Assembly: GCA_036339585.1 (NCBI GenBank)
Contig: JAYZAS010000010.1
Span: 62,001-126,000 of the forward strand
Origin: Pseudomonadota bacterium
GTDB taxonomy: Bacteria > Pseudomonadota > Alphaproteobacteria > UBA8366
Length of the DNA stretch: 64,000 nucleotides
Direction: 5' to 3'
This document shows positions 1,313 through 63,615 of the stretch, piece by piece. A program made the translations under genes and the position numbers. Position 1 is the first letter of the stretch; every line of letters starts with the position of its first letter. The notes beneath the pieces are model-generated. The model saw only the letters and a program-made list of their open reading frames with translations, had not been told where the DNA came from and ran no database searches.

Positions 1313-1867
1313 ATGACAATCATGCCAGATAGTTGGATTCGCGAGAAAGCCCATAAAGATGGCATGATTGATCCTTTTATTGATGCACAGAACCGTGATG
1401 GGACCATTTCGTTTGGTGTTTCATCATATGGATATGATGCGAGAGTAAGCAGAGAATTTAAGATTTTTACGAACGTGGATAATGCGATCGTTGATCCGAA
1501 GGCATTTTCGGACCAAAGTTTTGTCGAACGTGATACAGATGTCTGCATCATCCCACCAAATTCTTTTGCTCTTGCCTCTACGGTGGAATATTTCCGTATC
1601 CCTCGGAATGTTTTGGTTATTTGCCTTGGTAAGTCAACGTATGCTCGTTGCGGAATAATTGTGAATGTTACGCCGTTGGAGCCTGAGTGGGAAGGACATG
1701 TAACACTCGAATTTTCAAATACCACGCCATTGCCAGCGAAAATATATGCCGAAGAGGGAGCGTGCCAATTTTTGTTTCTCAAGGGTGATGGTGAGCCGGA
1801 TATATCATATGCCGACCGGAAGGGAAAATATATGGGGCAACGAGGGGTAACTCTGCCTAGGTTGTAA
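1313..1867 (+). CDS. dcd: dCTP deaminase
   Basis: This 184-residue protein converts dCTP to dUTP in the cytoplasm, feeding dUMP and thymidylate synthesis. It starts [11 protein letters not shown], like other Dcd proteins. Ser108 and Arg112 in GKSTYARCG, and Glu133 in the conserved [15 protein letters not shown] segment, correspond to the E. coli Ser111, Arg115 and catalytic Glu138. It is a trimeric dUTPase-fold enzyme, and the length suits the monofunctional deaminase. It lies upstream of murA on the same strand with an 83-nt gap, so the two may be co-transcribed. Confidence 0.96.
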
Positions 1868-1950
1868 AAAATTAGTTCTACATGGGTACTGAGTAATTCA
1901 GCTTCGACTGAATGGTATCTACTTTCCCAGCGGTGAAATTGAAGAGTGCT

Positions 1951-3225
1951 ATGGATCGCGTAAGAATCAAAGGCGGACACAGAATTGAGGGAATAATTCC
2001 AATTAGTGGAGCCAAGAATGCTGCTCTGCCTTTAATGGCCGCAAGTTTACTCACCGGGGAGCCGGTAACATTATCTAATGTGCCGAATTTGGAGGATATA
2101 AGAACGCTAGCTGACTTGCTTGAACAGCATGGTGTGTTTGTTGATAGACATTTAGATAGGGCAGAAATTACCTTTACTGCGTGCGAAATAAGTAACACGA
2201 CAGCACCTTATGATTTGGTGAGGAAGATGAGGGCTAGCGTGCTTGTGCTCGGACCTATTCTCAGCCGATTCGGTAAAGCCAAAGTGTCATTGCCTGGTGG
2301 TTGTGCGATTGGTACTAGGCCTATTGATTTGCATTTAAAGGCTCTAGAGCTTTTGGGTGCAGATATAGTTCTCGATGGGGGCTATGTCTTGGCTTCAGCT
2401 CCCTGCGGATTGAAGGGCGCCGATATCACGTTTCCTTTCGTTTCAGTGGGAGCTACCGAAAATATTATGATGGCAGCCACCCTCGCTGACGGAGAAACGA
2501 GGTTGATCAATGCTGCCCGTGAACCTGAAATAATTGATCTCGCGAATTGTTTAACTTCCATGGGCGCAAGTATCGAGGGGATAGGGAGTGATACGCTGGT
2601 AATTCAGGGCAGAAAATTACTTGGAGGTGTGCGCCACACAGTCATGCCAGACAGAATTGAGACCGGGACATATGCAATGGCTGCTGCAGCTACCGGCGGC
2701 GACGTACTGCTGAAAGGTGCTCAACCGAAACATCTTGTTGCGGTAACTGATAAACTAACGGAGGCTGGGGCTGTAATCACAGAGATTCCCGGAAAGAACG
2801 GAGGGCTACGAATAGCTTGTCAAGGCGGTGGTTTAGTTGGTGTTGACGTTATGACTGAGCCCTTTCCCGGTTTTCCAACAGACCTTCAGGCCCAATTTAT
2901 GGCTCTGCTGAGTCTATCGGATGGAGCGTCGATGATAACGGAGCAAATCTTTGAAAATCGATTCATGCATGTACCTGAACTGATGCGTATGGGTGCAAAC
3001 ATAAATTTGCATGGAGGGTCGGCAATGGTTCGAGGTGTTAAGGCCCTTAAAGGAGCGCCTGTGATGGCTACTGATCTTCGCGCTTCCGTTAGCTTAGTAA
3101 TAGCGGGTCTTGCTGCTGAAGGTGAGACGCTAGTGAGTAGAGTCTATCATCTCGATCGTGGTTATGAATGTCTGGAAAGAAAATTAGCATCGTGTGGTGC
3201 GCAGATAGAGCGCATTGAGGATTAG
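1951..3225 (+). CDS. murA: UDP-N-acetylglucosamine 1-carboxyvinyltransferase MurA
   Basis: MurA transfers enolpyruvate from PEP to UDP-GlcNAc, the first committed step of peptidoglycan synthesis, in the cytoplasm. From the ATG at 1951 the protein has 424 residues beginning [14 protein letters not shown], the usual MurA start; the frame stays open upstream to an ATG at 1912 that would add 13 unrelated residues. Lys22 and Asn23 lie in AKNAALP. The PEP-reactive Cys118 lies in [11 protein letters not shown], so the enzyme is the fosfomycin-sensitive Cys type. DUF2948 follows after 3 nt. Confidence 0.96.
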
Positions 3226-3228
3226 CCA

Positions 3229-3660
3229 ATGACTGAAGAGGCGGAATATTCGCCTATAAAATTGAGAGCATGTTCGCTTGAAGACCTTTCGTTAATCTCG
3301 GCACTATTGCAGGACGCGATAGTGCCGATCGGAGATATTGCATTTCTTAAGGATGAGAAATCCTTTGTCTTAGTTGCAAGCAGATATTGCTGGGAATATG
3401 ATAATAAGGGGAGCGGGCTTCGTGTTTTGTCCGGGCTCCGTTTTGATTGTGTAAAGCGCGCAGTTTCCAGAGAAATTGATCGTCGTGATAGAAACCAATT
3501 TCTGGAATTATTATCTATAAATTATTCAGATGGCTTTGTTGCAATCCATTTTTCTCGAGGAGGAGCGGTCCGTCTGGAGGTTGAGCGTCTCAACGTTGCT
3601 GTCCAAGACCTTTCCGAACCCCACCCAACAACATTTCAACCTCGGCATTCCGAAAATTGA
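3229..3660 (+). CDS. DUF2948 family protein
   Basis: A 143-residue cytoplasmic protein recognised as DUF2948, an alphaproteobacterial family usually found between murA and hisD. Signature stretches are LEDLSLISALLQDAI and the SRYCWE-type motif near residue 55. A DLSEPHPTTFQPRH tail matches the family's typical C-terminus, so the gene is complete. It begins 3 nt after murA and is surely in the same transcript. The biochemical role is not known. The expected downstream partner hisD is displaced by about 7.6 kb here. Confidence 0.85.
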   Translation: MTEEAEYSPIKLRACSLEDLSLISALLQDAIVPIGDIAFLKDEKSFVLVASRYCWEYDNKGSGLRVLSGLRFDCVKRAVSREIDRRDRNQFLELLSINYSDGFVAIHFSRGGAVRLEVERLNVAVQDLSEPHPTTFQPRHSEN

Positions 3661-58258: not shown

Positions 58259-58352
58259 TCTGTTCACCATCAAATCACTATTATCAAATACCTTTTTGTT
58301 ATTGAGGGGTTTTACTTTACTGAGAAACTAATTTGATGAAGATTGTTAGTCG

Positions 58353-58397
58353 AATACTCAGTTTTTTCGACAAAACAACGAGTATTGTTTTTTCTTT
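58353..58397 (+). terminator. Rho-independent terminator after serA
   Basis: AATACTC (58353-58359) pairs with GAGTATT (58380-58386) and an inner GTTTT/AAAAC (58361-58365 with 58372-58376) stacks inside it. A run of six T then CTTT follows. It lies 95 nt after serA. Confidence 0.65.
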
Positions 58398-58661
58398 CAG
58401 AAAAGCCTTCCAAGTACTATTCTAAAATGCTGACAAATTTACGAAACTGGCTTGATGAAAGTTTGCTTTGTTAAAACAATCTGAAATTTTTAAAGCATAT
58501 TGGTCAGTCAGAATAACAAAGCATGGCATAAATTTGGGTGATGCCCAATTGAAGTGCAACAAAACGATAGAGCACGAGCTTTCCTGAAACTACAATGCTG
58601 GGTGCGCCGCCTATCATTGATATTATTTAGTGAAAGACGGGCCATAAAAATGGAGGGGACT
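58398..58661. other. Leader region of purA
   Basis: About 260 bases between the serA terminator and purA. No gene, and in particular no hisZ, is found here. The purA frame stays open upstream to 58554, but those residues do not look like PurA. Confidence 0.5.
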
Positions 58662-59954
58662 ATGAGTAATGTGGTCGTTGTTGGCGCTCAATGGGGTGAT
58701 GAGGGGAAAGGCAAAATTGTCGATTGGCTCAGTGAACGAGCAGATGTAATTGTTCGGTTTCAAGGAGGGCACAATGCTGGCCATACACTCGTCATTAATG
58801 GAACCGAATATAAGTTGAGTCTGTTGCCGTCGGGAGTAGTGCGTTCCGGAAAGCTTTCAGTTATTGGTAACGGGGTGGTTGTTGACCCGCGTGCTCTAAT
58901 AGATGAAATACAGCGGCTTCGTTTGGCGGGTGTAGATATTTCTCCGGAGAAATTAAAAATAGCAGACAATGCGGTATTAATTTTGCCATTGCACCAAGAA
59001 CTGGATTTGGCGAGAGAAAAGGCTAGTGGAAAATCAGCTATTGGTACCACTGGCCGTGGCATCGGTCCTGCCTATGAAGACAAGGCTGCACGGCGAGCAA
59101 TCCGTGTTTGTGACTTAAAAGATCCTGACGTATTGGAATTCAAAGCAAACGAATTATTGCGGCATCACAATCCGTTGCGGCGCAGTTTCGGCATAGCGTC
59201 TCTAGAAGCATCAATGATAATCAATACGCTTAGGGAAACAAAAGACGAACTCCTTAGTTATGCAGCTCCGGTCTGGTTAGAGTTAGATAATGCACGAAAC
59301 GTGGGTAAGCGGATCTTGTTTGAGGGAGCTCAAGGCGTCATGCTCGATATTGATCATGGGACTTACCCGTTTGTAACGTCATCAAATACTCTTGCAGGAC
59401 AAGCGGCAACAGGTACGGGTATCGGTATTGGAGCTCTGGATTACGTTTTGGGAATTACGAAAGCATATACAACGAGAGTTGGCAGTGGTCCATTTCCAAC
59501 GGAACTGAACGATGAAATAGGGCAGCGTATTGGGCAAAAAGGGCGCGAATTCGGCACAGTAACTGGTCGCCAACGGCGGTGTGGCTGGTTTGATGCGGTT
59601 ATGGTCCGCCAAGCAATCAAAACTGCCGGCATAAATGGTATTGCACTCACTAAACTTGATGTTCTTGATGGGCTCGATAATCTTAATATCTGCACTTCCT
59701 ATAAACTAGATGGCGAAAGTGTGGACTTCTTGCCTGCTTCGATGCGGGCTCAATCATCAGTATTACCTTGTTATGAGACGTTAGAAGGTTGGAAACAGAG
59801 CACAGAAGCAGCAAGATCATTGGATGAGCTGCCCGCTGCAGCTATAAAGTATATAGGGCGGATTGAAGAACTCATTGAAGCACCAGTTTCATTGCTTTCA
59901 ACTAGTCCGGAGCGGGACGATACCATTACCGTTATCGATCCGTTTGGTGGGTGA
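58662..59954 (+). CDS. purA: Adenylosuccinate synthetase
   Basis: PurA joins IMP and aspartate with GTP, the first step from IMP to AMP. The ATG at 58662 is preceded by GGAGGGG at close spacing and gives the canonical start [23 protein letters not shown], with catalytic Asp in the GDEGKGK loop; the in-frame upstream extension to 58554 is not family sequence. QGGHNAGHT (catalytic His), [20 protein letters not shown] in parts, [23 protein letters not shown] in parts and the GRQRRCGW segment follow. The length of 430 residues is usual. Confidence 0.96.
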
Positions 59955-60126: not shown

Positions 60127-62154
60127 ATGGCTGATGAAAACAGGCAACCGGGCGAACAAAATAGCGGCACGGTAAGTACTGAGGGCTGGTATGATGTTTT
60201 TTCAGATCAGCCGTTAAAGGAATTTGACTCGCCACCGGCGTTAGCTTACGCCGCTTCAGATGTTAACAATGCTGGCCGGGAATTGTTGGCTTTGGTCTGC
60301 GATCCCAAGCAGTCCCCGCGCCATGAACAAGTGTCGACGATGAACCGTGTTGATCAACCTGGGCTAGTCCGGGTTGTGGATTGGAAAGTAATAGATTGGC
60401 CTCTAGAAGATCGTCGTTGCCCGGTTTTAATTTACGAGCGCCCTCGTGGAAAAAGGGTAGCTGATAGTATCGATAGCCCAATTCAAATTGCTTCCGAGGA
60501 AATAATCACACAGAATTTTATAAAACCAGTAACGGCGGCGCTTCGCGATATTGATCATCAGAATCTGACGCATCGTGCTATCAGGCCAACCAATCTTTTT
60601 TACGATAGCGTCTCCACAGGTCAGGCGACAATTATGTTGGGTGAGTGCCTTGCGGCTCCTCCAGCAATTAATCAGCCAGTAGCTTATGAGACGGTAGAAA
60701 CGGCGATGGCTCCTGCAAGTGGGCGTGGGCTCGGATCGATATCGGATGATCTTTACTCTTTTGGCGTTTGCATATTGGCACTTTTGATTGGGCAAAGTCC
60801 TGGGACTGGGATGAGTGACGATGAAATTCTTTCTGCAAAACTGGAACGCGGAAGCTATAACGCACTCATATCTGGCCACCGCCTATCCCTAACCATGTTG
60901 GAGATTGTGCGAGGGCTTTTGATGGACGATGTTGATGAGCGTTGGACATTGGATGATTTAGAGCTTTGGCTCGCTGGGCGCAGGCTAAGTCCTAAACAAC
61001 AAGAAATTTCGAGAGCAACGCAAGCGTTTTCTTTCGGAGGTAATAAGATTTTTACCCGCCGTAATGTGGCTCGCGTGTTTGGACAAAAGTGGGATTCTGC
61101 TATTGAACCGGTACGTGGTGGCTCGCTCGATGAATGGCTAAGGCGAAGTTTGGGAAATGAAGAAGCGATCGAGGCTGTTAATACGGCTAAAGAACCCGCA
61201 GCCGGTGGCATTGAGACTGATGACCGCATGTTAGCTCGGATCATTATTGCGTTGGATCCGCTAGGACCAATAAGATTTAAAAATTTTTCTGCTACACTTG
61301 ATGGAATTGGTTATTTGATTGCCGCTCCAGGAGGTGACAAAGATCTTAGCAAGGATCTCTCGGAAGTTCTTAAAGGTGATCTAATATCGTTTGCGTGTAA
61401 AATGATGGGTAAAGCGGGGGAAGATATAACTCGCTTTATTTCGTTATATGACCAAATGATTCCATTCCTAGCCCATTCAGAACTTGGTCAGGGTTTCGAA
61501 AGGGTAATATACGAGCTCAATCCAAACGTACCTTGCCAATCACCGCTTTTAGAATCAGAGTATGTTTACGATATGGTTGAGATGCTTGAAGCATTCGAGC
61601 GCATAGCCATTGCCAATCCGGAGACACTTATAGAGCCTGTTGATCGGCATATTGCTGCGTTCTTAGTTGCTCGCATGAAAGTTAGCATTATGACTGAATT
61701 GCGTGAGCTTCAAAACCGTTCAGACCCTGCTGTTTTAGCTATTGCTAATGTTCGTATCTTAGGACACGTGCAGGAGGAAGCGGGCTCGTCTGTAGCACCT
61801 AACCTCTGTAAGATAGCAGTAGAAATTCTTGATCCGGCTATTGAACGTTTCCGCAGTCGACGTCAGAGAGATCTGGTTAGAAAACGATTGTCTGAAATTT
61901 CTAAAGATGGACGGCTAGCGGACATCTTGAGACTCGTCGACAATTCAAAATATCTTGAAAGTGACCGATCAGATAACGATAAAGCAGTTAAAGAATTTGC
62001 TGGGTCTATTCAAGCGATGCAAAGGATGGAATTTGAAAAAACTCATCGACTAGAATTGGCCAAAGTAATTGGAGCTGAGATAAGTGCCTTCTTCTCCTTA
62101 ATTCTGTCGATGATTGTCCTGATAAGCATGGGAGTGTATTGGATACTGGGGTAA
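60127..62154 (+). CDS. Membrane-anchored pseudokinase-like protein
   Basis: A 675-residue protein with a serine/threonine-kinase-like N-terminal half (about 20-290). The catalytic HRD is HRA (residues 149-151, in HRAIRPTN), the DFG position reads LGE (171-173), and the usual VAIK lysine is not visible, while the DDLYSFGV segment of subdomain IX is kept. It should therefore not phosphorylate in the normal way. The middle (300-640) is helical and of unknown fold. A C-terminal membrane helix lies at about 651-674. The next gene follows after 3 nt. The protein probably acts as a scaffold or signal receiver at the inner membrane. Confidence 0.7.
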   Translation: MADENRQPGEQNSGTVSTEGWYDVFSDQPLKEFDSPPALAYAASDVNNAGRELLALVCDPKQSPRHEQVSTMNRVDQPGLVRVVDWKVIDWPLEDRRCPVLIYERPRGKRVADSIDSPIQIASEEIITQNFIKPVTAALRDIDHQNLTHRAIRPTNLFYDSVSTGQATIMLGECLAAPPAINQPVAYETVETAMAPASGRGLGSISDDLYSFGVCILALLIGQSPGTGMSDDEILSAKLERGSYNALISGHRLSLTMLEIVRGLLMDDVDERWTLDDLELWLAGRRLSPKQQEISRATQAFSFGGNKIFTRRNVARVFGQKWDSAIEPVRGGSLDEWLRRSLGNEEAIEAVNTAKEPAAGGIETDDRMLARIIIALDPLGPIRFKNFSATLDGIGYLIAAPGGDKDLSKDLSEVLKGDLISFACKMMGKAGEDITRFISLYDQMIPFLAHSELGQGFERVIYELNPNVPCQSPLLESEYVYDMVEMLEAFERIAIANPETLIEPVDRHIAAFLVARMKVSIMTELRELQNRSDPAVLAIANVRILGHVQEEAGSSVAPNLCKIAVEILDPAIERFRSRRQRDLVRKRLSEISKDGRLADILRLVDNSKYLESDRSDNDKAVKEFAGSIQAMQRMEFEKTHRLELAKVIGAEISAFFSLILSMIVLISMGVYWILG

Positions 62155-62157
62155 AGC

Positions 62158-62721
62158 GTGATGGCAGACAAAAATAAAAAATCAGGTTCTATTAAAGCAG
62201 GCTCGATGAAAGCCTGGATTTATACCCTAGTTGCTGCGGCTTTAATCTTTTTTGTCTTTTTAGATGTTTTTATCTTAGTCGCCATAGGTATGGCGCCTAC
62301 GATGGGAGCATTAGTAATAGATCGATCATCGCGGCGGTATTTTACGATGACCGTTGCCTTTCCCAACGGGGTAGGGGTTCTACCTAGTGCAATCAAACTA
62401 TTTAGTGGGGGTAGCGGGGGGGTTGATGCAGCTCTCGAGTTGGTTAGTGATCCAATTGTGTTAGTTACGATGTACGCTGCCGGTGCTGTTGGCTGGATAA
62501 TCTATTATAGCGTGCCACCTTTTGTTGCTGTTTGGTTATCTATGCAAAGTGAGGTGAAAGCAGCAGCAATCAAGAAAAGACAGAAGGCATTAATAAAAAA
62601 CTGGGGAAACGAGGTTCGCTTCGAAGCCGAAAAACTAATCCCCGACGACGTCAATGTATCTGAACTTTTAGGTGAGCCACTTGATGCCGACAATGCCGAT
62701 TCTAACGATGGAAAAAGATGA
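62158..62721 (+). CDS. Small membrane protein paired with the pseudokinase
   Basis: A 187-residue inner-membrane protein with a basic N-terminus, a hydrophobic pair at about 18-55 (WIYTLVAAALIFFVFLDVF onward) and a second at about 100-130 (PIVLVTMYAAGAVGWIIYYS). A charged cytoplasmic tail follows (ending in DADNADSNDGKR). The start is GTG 62158 or ATG 62161. It follows the pseudokinase by 3 nt and the two surely form one transcript, so a physical complex is likely. It was not assigned to a named family. Confidence 0.65.
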   Translation: MMADKNKKSGSIKAGSMKAWIYTLVAAALIFFVFLDVFILVAIGMAPTMGALVIDRSSRRYFTMTVAFPNGVGVLPSAIKLFSGGSGGVDAALELVSDPIVLVTMYAAGAVGWIIYYSVPPFVAVWLSMQSEVKAAAIKKRQKALIKNWGNEVRFEAEKLIPDDVNVSELLGEPLDADNADSNDGKR

Positions 62722-62727
62722 CTGCTG

Positions 62728-63615
62728 CTATGTGATAAAGGTTTTTTCTGCGGCTTGAGATTGAATAGCTTTCTGGAGTTTCTCGAAGGCGCGTGCTTCT
62801 ATTTGTCGAACGCGTTCTCGACTAATTCCGTATTCATTGCTTAATTCTTCCAGAGTCATAGTATCATCCTTCAAACGGCGCATCTGAATTATATGTTTCT
62901 CTCGCTCGTTCAGAATAGCCATAGCGTTCGACAACATTTCACGCCGTTTTTGCAATTCTTGGGCCTCAGCCACTTGAATTTCTTGACTTTCGGTTTCATC
63001 CTCTAACCAGTCTTGCCATTCACCATCGCCCGATGCTTTCAGTGGCGTATTAAGAGAGTGGTCCTGTGCAGCTAGACGCCTGTTCATCGACACGACGTCA
63101 TGCTCGGGGACATTCAACTCCGAGGATATGTGTTCGACATGTTCAGGCGCCAAGTCGCCTTCCTCAAAAGCCTCCAATTTATTTTTCATTTTACGAAGGT
63201 TGAAGAACAACTTCTTCTGCGCTGCAGTGGTTCCCATTTTAACAAGAGACCACGAGTGTAAAACATACTCTTGAATGGATGCCTTAATCCACCACATTGC
63301 ATATGTTGCGAGACGGAACCCCCTGTCTGGTTCAAACCTCTTCACAGCCTGCATCAGACCAACGTTACCCTCAGAAATCAAATCGCTCACAGGCAGACCA
63401 GACCCCCGATAACCCATCGCAATTTTAGCAACGAGTCTTAAATGACTAGTCACTAGCTTGTGAGCCGCCTCAGTATCCTCATGTTCACGCCACCTTTTTG
63501 CAAGCATGTATTCTTCTTGCTTCTCCAGCATTGGAAACTGGCGAATTTGTTGCAGGTATCGTTGCAGATTGCCCTCAGGACTTATGCTTAAGCTTGGTAG
63601 TGTTGTTCCGGCCAC
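62728..63615 (-). CDS. rpoH: RNA polymerase sigma factor RpoH (sigma-32)
   Basis: The heat-shock sigma factor. The 295-residue protein has region 1.2 (NLQRYLQQIRQFPMLEKQEE in part), region 2 with DLISEGNVGLMQAVKRF and FRLATYAMWWIKASIQEYV, the RpoH box QKKLFFNLR (133-141) which is diagnostic, and a region 4 helix-turn-helix ELSNEYGISRERVRQIEARAFEKL in parts. The start is GTG at 63615 with AGGAG upstream. It converges on the pseudokinase pair and is divided from the RluA-type gene by 105 nt. Confidence 0.96.
   Translation of the reverse strand: MAGTTLPSLSISPEGNLQRYLQQIRQFPMLEKQEEYMLAKRWREHEDTEAAHKLVTSHLRLVAKIAMGYRGSGLPVSDLISEGNVGLMQAVKRFEPDRGFRLATYAMWWIKASIQEYVLHSWSLVKMGTTAAQKKLFFNLRKMKNKLEAFEEGDLAPEHVEHISSELNVPEHDVVSMNRRLAAQDHSLNTPLKASGDGEWQDWLEDETESQEIQVAEAQELQKRREMLSNAMAILNEREKHIIQMRRLKDDTMTLEELSNEYGISRERVRQIEARAFEKLQKAIQSQAAEKTFIT

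Follow-up and report, generated by a model that had tools for sequence, protein, structure and literature searches.

The window, a 64,000-nucleotide stretch of an alphaproteobacterial genome, carries two open reading frames between purA and the convergent gene rpoH, which we call kin and mem (Table 1). Both frames were found where the initial annotation had placed them. The start of mem was listed as a GTG at 62158, which leaves a gap of 3 nt to kin; we prefer the ATG at 62161, because mem homologues open with M-A-x, and the gap is then 6 nt. Homologues of kin bear the automatic label 'serine/threonine protein kinase', and the gene equivalent to rpoH in Azospirillum thermophilum carries the annotation rpoH. 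Over five close pairs, dN/dS ranged from 0.05 to 0.19 in kin and from 0.06 to 0.27 in mem; both genes are under purifying selection. These low ratios, together with full-length homologues throughout the class, indicate that neither frame is a product of chance. A sixth pair was unusable for kin because one of its sequences (locus L017) has an in-frame TGA. This codon splits kin at ~1501-3453 of a locus from a metagenome-assembled genome (MAG; G022) in which the neighbours look intact, and it represents either a sequencing error or a decayed copy. A sister genome of the window is also a MAG, labelled uncultured Rhodospirillaceae bacterium, and the sample code suggests a marine origin. Upstream, serA is followed directly by purA in the window; the stretch concerned is 58259-58553. 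At this place, immediately 5' of purA, A. thermophilum has a regulatory gene of ATP phosphoribosyltransferase, and many relatives have a same-strand frame of ~400 aa.

Table 1. Features of the kin-mem locus, in positions of the window
Feature	Position	Strand	Remarks
purA	58554..59954	+	Conserved upstream neighbour of kin, given as context; Pfam 2e-174
kin	60127..62154	+	ATG start, 675 aa; membrane-anchored pseudokinase; from ORF, homologues and annotation
Kinase-like domain of kin	60184..60996	+	Residues ~20-290; PF00069, PDB-kinase profile and relatives profile
ALVC	60289..60300	+	Residues 55-58; replaces the β3 VIK/VAIK lysine motif; alignment to motif-complete relatives
HRA	60571..60579	+	Residues 149-151; replaces HRD; alignment to motif-complete relatives
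Asn156	60592..60594	+	Catalytic loop; kept in 139/145
E173-C174-L175	60643..60651	+	Replaces DFG; HMMER and hhalign agree
Post-kinase repeat A	61012..61260	+	Residues 296-378; common to motif-keeping kinases and kinase-helicase protein
Repeat B	61261..61482	+	Residues 379-452; second beta-hairpin plus helix unit
Helical-domain core	61483..61671	+	Residues 453-515, most conserved stretch; GxGxERxxYExNPxxPCxSP ... DRHxxAF
Long antiparallel helical hairpin	61945..62151	+	Leads into the C-terminal transmembrane helix, whose hydrophobic core is ~652-670
mem	62161..62721	+	~186 aa; two-hairpin membrane protein; alternative GTG start 62158
mem hairpin 1	62206..62319	+	Residues 16-53; GMxPT motif; both ends predicted cytoplasmic
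mem hairpin 2	62338..62535	+	Residues 60-125; N69/G72 and G111/W112
mem cytoplasmic helix	62536..62637	+	Past the last membrane segment; ends in near-invariant W148-G149
rpoH	62728..63615	-	Conserved convergent neighbour of mem, given as context; sigma-70-class match

The Pfam kinase model PF00069 matched kin below its threshold (28.2 bits versus a cut-off of 31.7; 1.6e-6). A profile of 14 members of the kin family matched solved kinases in the PDB with an E-value of 4.9e-13, and the kinase-like match first reported for kin is real. We compared its catalytic motifs with those of three Hanks-type kinases from other Proteobacteria (L058, L059 and L169). Where these kinases have VIK or ILK, kin has ALV; HRDIKPGN has become HRAIRPTN and GDFG has become GECL, and the activation loop is ~8 residues shorter in kin than in such motif-complete relatives. 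HRA had been correctly named as the counterpart of HRD, while LGE, proposed as the counterpart of DFG, was read in the wrong register: as the string G-D-F-G aligns with G-E-C-L, the position of DFG is E173-C174-L175.

The same losses run through the family. Among 145 kin sequences, a β3 lysine occurred at neither position 56 nor position 58 and at position 57 in only two; the HRD aspartate was missing in 144 (Ala151 in the window), and no sequence had both residues. Two members (L142 and L143) may retain the β3 lysine, and one (L029) retains the HRD aspartate. The position of the DFG aspartate is acidic in 125 sequences, with Glu in 77 (among them the window, Glu173) and Asp in 48. Thus the protein in the window has none of the three residues looked for in an active Hanks-type Ser/Thr kinase (β3 lysine, HRD Asp and DFG Asp), and it has the features of a protein kinase-like fold with degraded catalytic motifs. 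Set against relatives in which the catalytic residues persist, the proposal that kin is a pseudokinase is well supported. Its own genome yielded no other match to PF00069 and hence no candidate for an active Hanks kinase; kin is therefore unlikely to serve as the allosteric partner of such a kinase in that genome.

The kin sequences form a clade with a support of 100/100, and the closest relatives found outside it are motif-complete kinases that carry several post-kinase repeats of the type seen in kin. L058, L059 and L169 align with kin over ~300 residues of the kinase fold, and they share with it the GL..RW..WL.G end and at least one copy of the repeat. Unlike kin, they retain VIK/ILK, HRDIKPGN and DFG, their repeats are more numerous and their C-terminus is a different one; the short loci seen show no mem-like gene. 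To judge by their motifs, they are presumably active enzymes. Because repeat A is common to motif-complete kinases and a kinase-helicase protein, kin appears to be a kinase that lost catalysis and not a fold assembled anew, and most simply this loss would have occurred in an alphaproteobacterial ancestor. The repeat itself looks like an unnamed kinase-associated domain. Besides the kinase-helicase protein just mentioned (L165, 4919-12001), a second one carries it (L166, 3330-6962); both are of the DLHK/MkoA type and have GFG in place of DFG.

Behind the kinase-like domain, repeats A and B of kin are alike in predicted secondary structure; the similarity of their sequences is not significant. 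In the AF2 model of residues 296-675 (mean pLDDT 95.8, pTM 0.85), two units of a beta-hairpin plus a helix are followed by a core made up of helices and by a long helical hairpin, the second arm of which ends in a predicted membrane helix. Both the helical region and the membrane helix had been recognized from the start, and the latter is present in 144 of the 145 kin homologues. In a family that reaches down to ~20% identity, Tyr462 and Cys470 are invariant (145/145), and other residues come close: Trp337 and Asp613 (143 each), Asp506 (142), Ser472 (140), Gln549 (135) and His508 (131). A Foldseek comparison of the helical domain with the PDB gave no match at E <= 0.001; the highest VIA Z was 6.4, over 71 residues of long helix. 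A sequence search of the PDB with the same domain returned only chance-like matches, mostly to designed repeat proteins. No Pfam family covers the region behind the kinase domain, and searches of kin against Pfam, NCBIfam and PADLOC returned generic kinase matches and nothing else.

For mem, the same three collections gave nothing significant, and no Pfam family covers it. The structure model of mem has a mean pLDDT of 89; compared with known folds, it yielded no match at E <= 0.001, and the highest Z was 4.7. As with the helical domain of kin, weak or absent matches are no proof of a new fold. Average charges over the mem family are +4.2 for the N-terminus, +0.8 for the loop 53-62, -1.1 for the loop 82-98 and +1.5 for the tail; this pattern is consistent with two hairpins whose N-terminus, middle loop and tail face the cytoplasm. 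The two hairpins described in the initial annotation thus agree with both the family charge pattern and the model. Conservation in mem is concentrated in GMxPT, N69, G72, G111, W112 and W148-G149.

The occurrence of the two genes was surveyed with family profiles in a sample of 385 genomes across Alphaproteobacteria. At E <= 0.001, the kin profile matched 138 genomes, or 131 after seven weak generic-kinase matches were dropped (G042, G045, G102, G183, G266, G274 and G280), and the mem profile matched 133. When the lists were compared by hand, 131 genomes had both genes, none had kin only, two had mem only (G070 and G084, which are 84% and 75% complete) and 252 had neither, so that the conserved membrane module suspected from a single locus is borne out across the class. 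In a phylum-wide sample, full-length kin was restricted to Alphaproteobacteria, and elsewhere the kinase part alone matched; a profile of the helical domain added weak partial matches beyond the class and no more. Near-complete genomes of only 1.4-1.7 Mb (G085, G209, G304 and G058) still carry kin.

The first 20 loci showed the order purA-kin-mem-rpoH in full or almost in full, as did many of ~100 others, often with serC and serA further 5', and beyond these neighbours no recurrent third gene was found near the pair. Mem lies immediately 3' of kin at nearly every locus, including those away from purA and rpoH. In Azospirillum ramasamyi, the pair is on a plasmid, near phaC and a histidine kinase gene, and in other families it also occurs apart from purA and rpoH; in A. 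thermophilum, the entire purA-kin-mem-rpoH block is on a plasmid. Since kin-mem is also found elsewhere, its housekeeping neighbourhood, which had been offered as a hint to function, is not a functional clue. Among plasmid records, the full pair was found in Azospirillum only, and phage records gave no match. One genome of six contigs, which is 100% complete (G339), has retained both genes although they are on separate contigs. Long frames around mem in high-GC genomes, which looked like fusions, are overlapping stop-free frames.

The two proteins also change together. Over 53 non-redundant loci, the distances of kin and mem correlated at 0.59. The partial rank correlation between kin and mem given purA and rpoH was 0.49, compared with 0.09 between purA and rpoH given kin and mem, and none of 2000 label permutations reached the value for kin and mem. 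Thus the rates of kin and mem co-vary beyond those of the flanking genes.

We then compared kin with described pseudokinases. A review treats seven annotated bacterial families (ActPs1, ActPs2, ActPs3, GLW, CP1, DYD and DLHK), and describes ActPs1 and ActPs2 as mainly actinobacterial (PMC12599244). DLHK proteins keep the HRD aspartate and have a linked helicase and no transmembrane region (PMC12599244). The DLHK/MkoA-like protein L165 resembles kin in its degraded motifs, in RGLL..RW..WL.G and in having an A repeat right behind the kinase fold, whereas kin differs from DLHK in its HRA, its lack of a helicase match and its C-terminal transmembrane helix. The best PADLOC match of kin is indeed MkoA (1.1e-10); this match is confined to the kinase part of MkoA (57-275 of 1112), and kin has no helicase domain, so we rejected it as a Mokosh MkoA. 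GLW pseudokinases, defined by GLW at HRD and LLLL/W at β3 (PMC12599244), are like kin proteobacterial, with degraded motifs and a membrane helix behind the kinase domain; kin instead has HRA (HRN or HRS in relatives), ALVC and a ~350-aa helical domain, as well as the partner gene mem, while PMC12599244 mentions no such partner for GLW. CP1 pseudokinases have a COG3899 ATPase domain and no transmembrane region (PMC12599244), whereas kin has no ATPase match and a C-terminal transmembrane helix. By the features given in PMC12599244, kin would fall outside GLW, CP1 and DLHK. Our literature search, which excluded most subscription journals, found no paper on kin-mem, and with no Pfam family for mem or the post-kinase region, the pair is apparently undescribed, as was first supposed; kin would be a pseudokinase family of a known kind.

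What could such a protein do? EssB/YukC and MviN are membrane-tethered pseudokinases that work without catalysis (PMC12599244), and by analogy bacterial pseudokinases can act in the way that we propose for kin. Kin lacks the neighbourhood or domains that go with their roles in type VII secretion and peptidoglycan synthesis, respectively; with neighbours serC, serA, purA and rpoH and no recurring secretion genes, it was rejected as an EssB/YukC of type VIIb secretion. The MviN-type pseudokinase acts through an FHA protein (MviN-FhaA). A general FHA partner was rejected for kin, as eight of ten pair-holding genomes gave no FHA match. Outside the window, the genome to which it belongs carries a couple of FHA-domain frames less than 2.5 kb apart (G000:C23:50282-52731), shared with its sister G002 and found in none of the eight other pair-holding genomes.

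Our preferred reading, to which we give a probability of about 0.6, is that kin is a non-catalytic, membrane-tethered adaptor in an obligate complex with mem. The near-perfect pairing of the two genes argues that kin needs mem, and the conserved helical core argues that kin binds something there. From these data we infer a physical complex, its topology in the cell, the binding of a client and a scaffold role, which the initial annotation had named beside signalling as a candidate function; the most economical reading would be that of an adaptor complex at the inner side of the cytoplasmic membrane. On this reading, a Hanks-type kinase with post-kinase repeats gave rise to kin: in an alphaproteobacterial ancestor it lost the β3 lysine and the catalytic aspartate and shortened its activation loop; with a C-terminal membrane anchor and mem gained as an obligate partner, kin would now act without phosphotransfer. 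Its kinase-like and helical domains would lie against the cytoplasmic surface of the membrane, where the tail helix of kin and the mem hairpins would hold them, and a cytoplasmic client would be bound through the region of Tyr462, Cys470, Asp506 and His508 in the helical core, with the pseudokinase fold providing a rigid or switchable docking platform. Some duplicated copies of kin without an adjacent mem (in L128, L133, L135 and L146) count against this reading, as do the possible β3 lysine of L142 and L143 and the HRD aspartate of L029.

Two active-site positions are kept in kin, Asn156 in 139/145 sequences and an acidic residue at 173 in 125/145, and they could point to residual metal or nucleotide binding or to an atypical activity. 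It is possible, if unlikely, that Asn156 and Glu/Asp173 still allow kin to bind nucleotide and metal and that kin is a ligand-gated switch, its bound or empty state controlling mem as the effector, that is, a channel, transporter or membrane remodeller. The loss of the other catalytic residues around these two, and the conserved Pro, Gly, Asn and Trp in the membrane part of mem, are consistent with such a switch; the β3 lysine, however, is lost as well, and no channel or transporter matched mem convincingly. We consider it distinctly unlikely that the helical domain is the working part of kin, as an enzyme or ligand-binding unit employing Cys470, Asp506 and His508, and that the pseudokinase merely positions it. 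The invariant Tyr462 and Cys470 could mark an enzyme, and they stand, together with Asp506 and His508, in the most conserved stretch of a highly divergent family and in a domain with no convincing match to a solved fold; yet an invariant Cys and Tyr may equally be structural. Just as doubtful in our estimate is the stronger form, a post-kinase helical domain of new fold with an active or ligand site at Tyr462/Cys470 (plus Asp506 and His508); the pseudokinase would gate this domain, which would act on the membrane via mem. If true, Alphaproteobacteria would have a new membrane regulatory system that spans the class.

An atypical enzyme, in which the degenerate kinase fold runs another transfer, as in SelO (AMPylation) and SidJ (glutamylation), appears very improbable. 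Re-purposed bacterial pseudokinases are documented (PMC12599244) and two polar active-site positions of kin remain, but SidJ (VAVK) and SelO (WHLK) both have a lysine at the ATP-binding motif (PMC12599244, Table 1), whereas kin has no conserved lysine at or near β3, and no replacement catalytic base was found. The active Ser/Thr kinase of the automatic annotation can practically be dismissed, as the β3 lysine and HRD aspartate are lost family-wide and kept in the outside relatives.

The gene pair probably has a basic role in its host bacteria, since it has been kept for so long and in genomes down to 1.4 Mb. The distinguishing parts of kin and mem have no family model, and kin is named a kinase automatically. 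Moreover, kin is a clear natural example of how a pseudokinase arises from a kinase, with motif-intact relatives, lost residues that can be named and an acquired partner that has been identified, and the pair is open to direct test in Azospirillum species, which are cultured and not pathogenic.

Finally, several loci and genomes hold additional copies. A tandem kin-mem-kin-mem arrangement occurs in L062, L064 and L111, in two cases inside the purA-rpoH interval. The genomes with a second kin that has no adjacent mem also hold a linked pair, and in these second copies HRD reads HGA, HGG or HGS. Two genomes (G052 and G184) have four mem matches each and, among the matches listed, one kin each; their surplus mem copies may pair with unseen kin paralogues, and one of the copies in G052 has an in-frame TGA.
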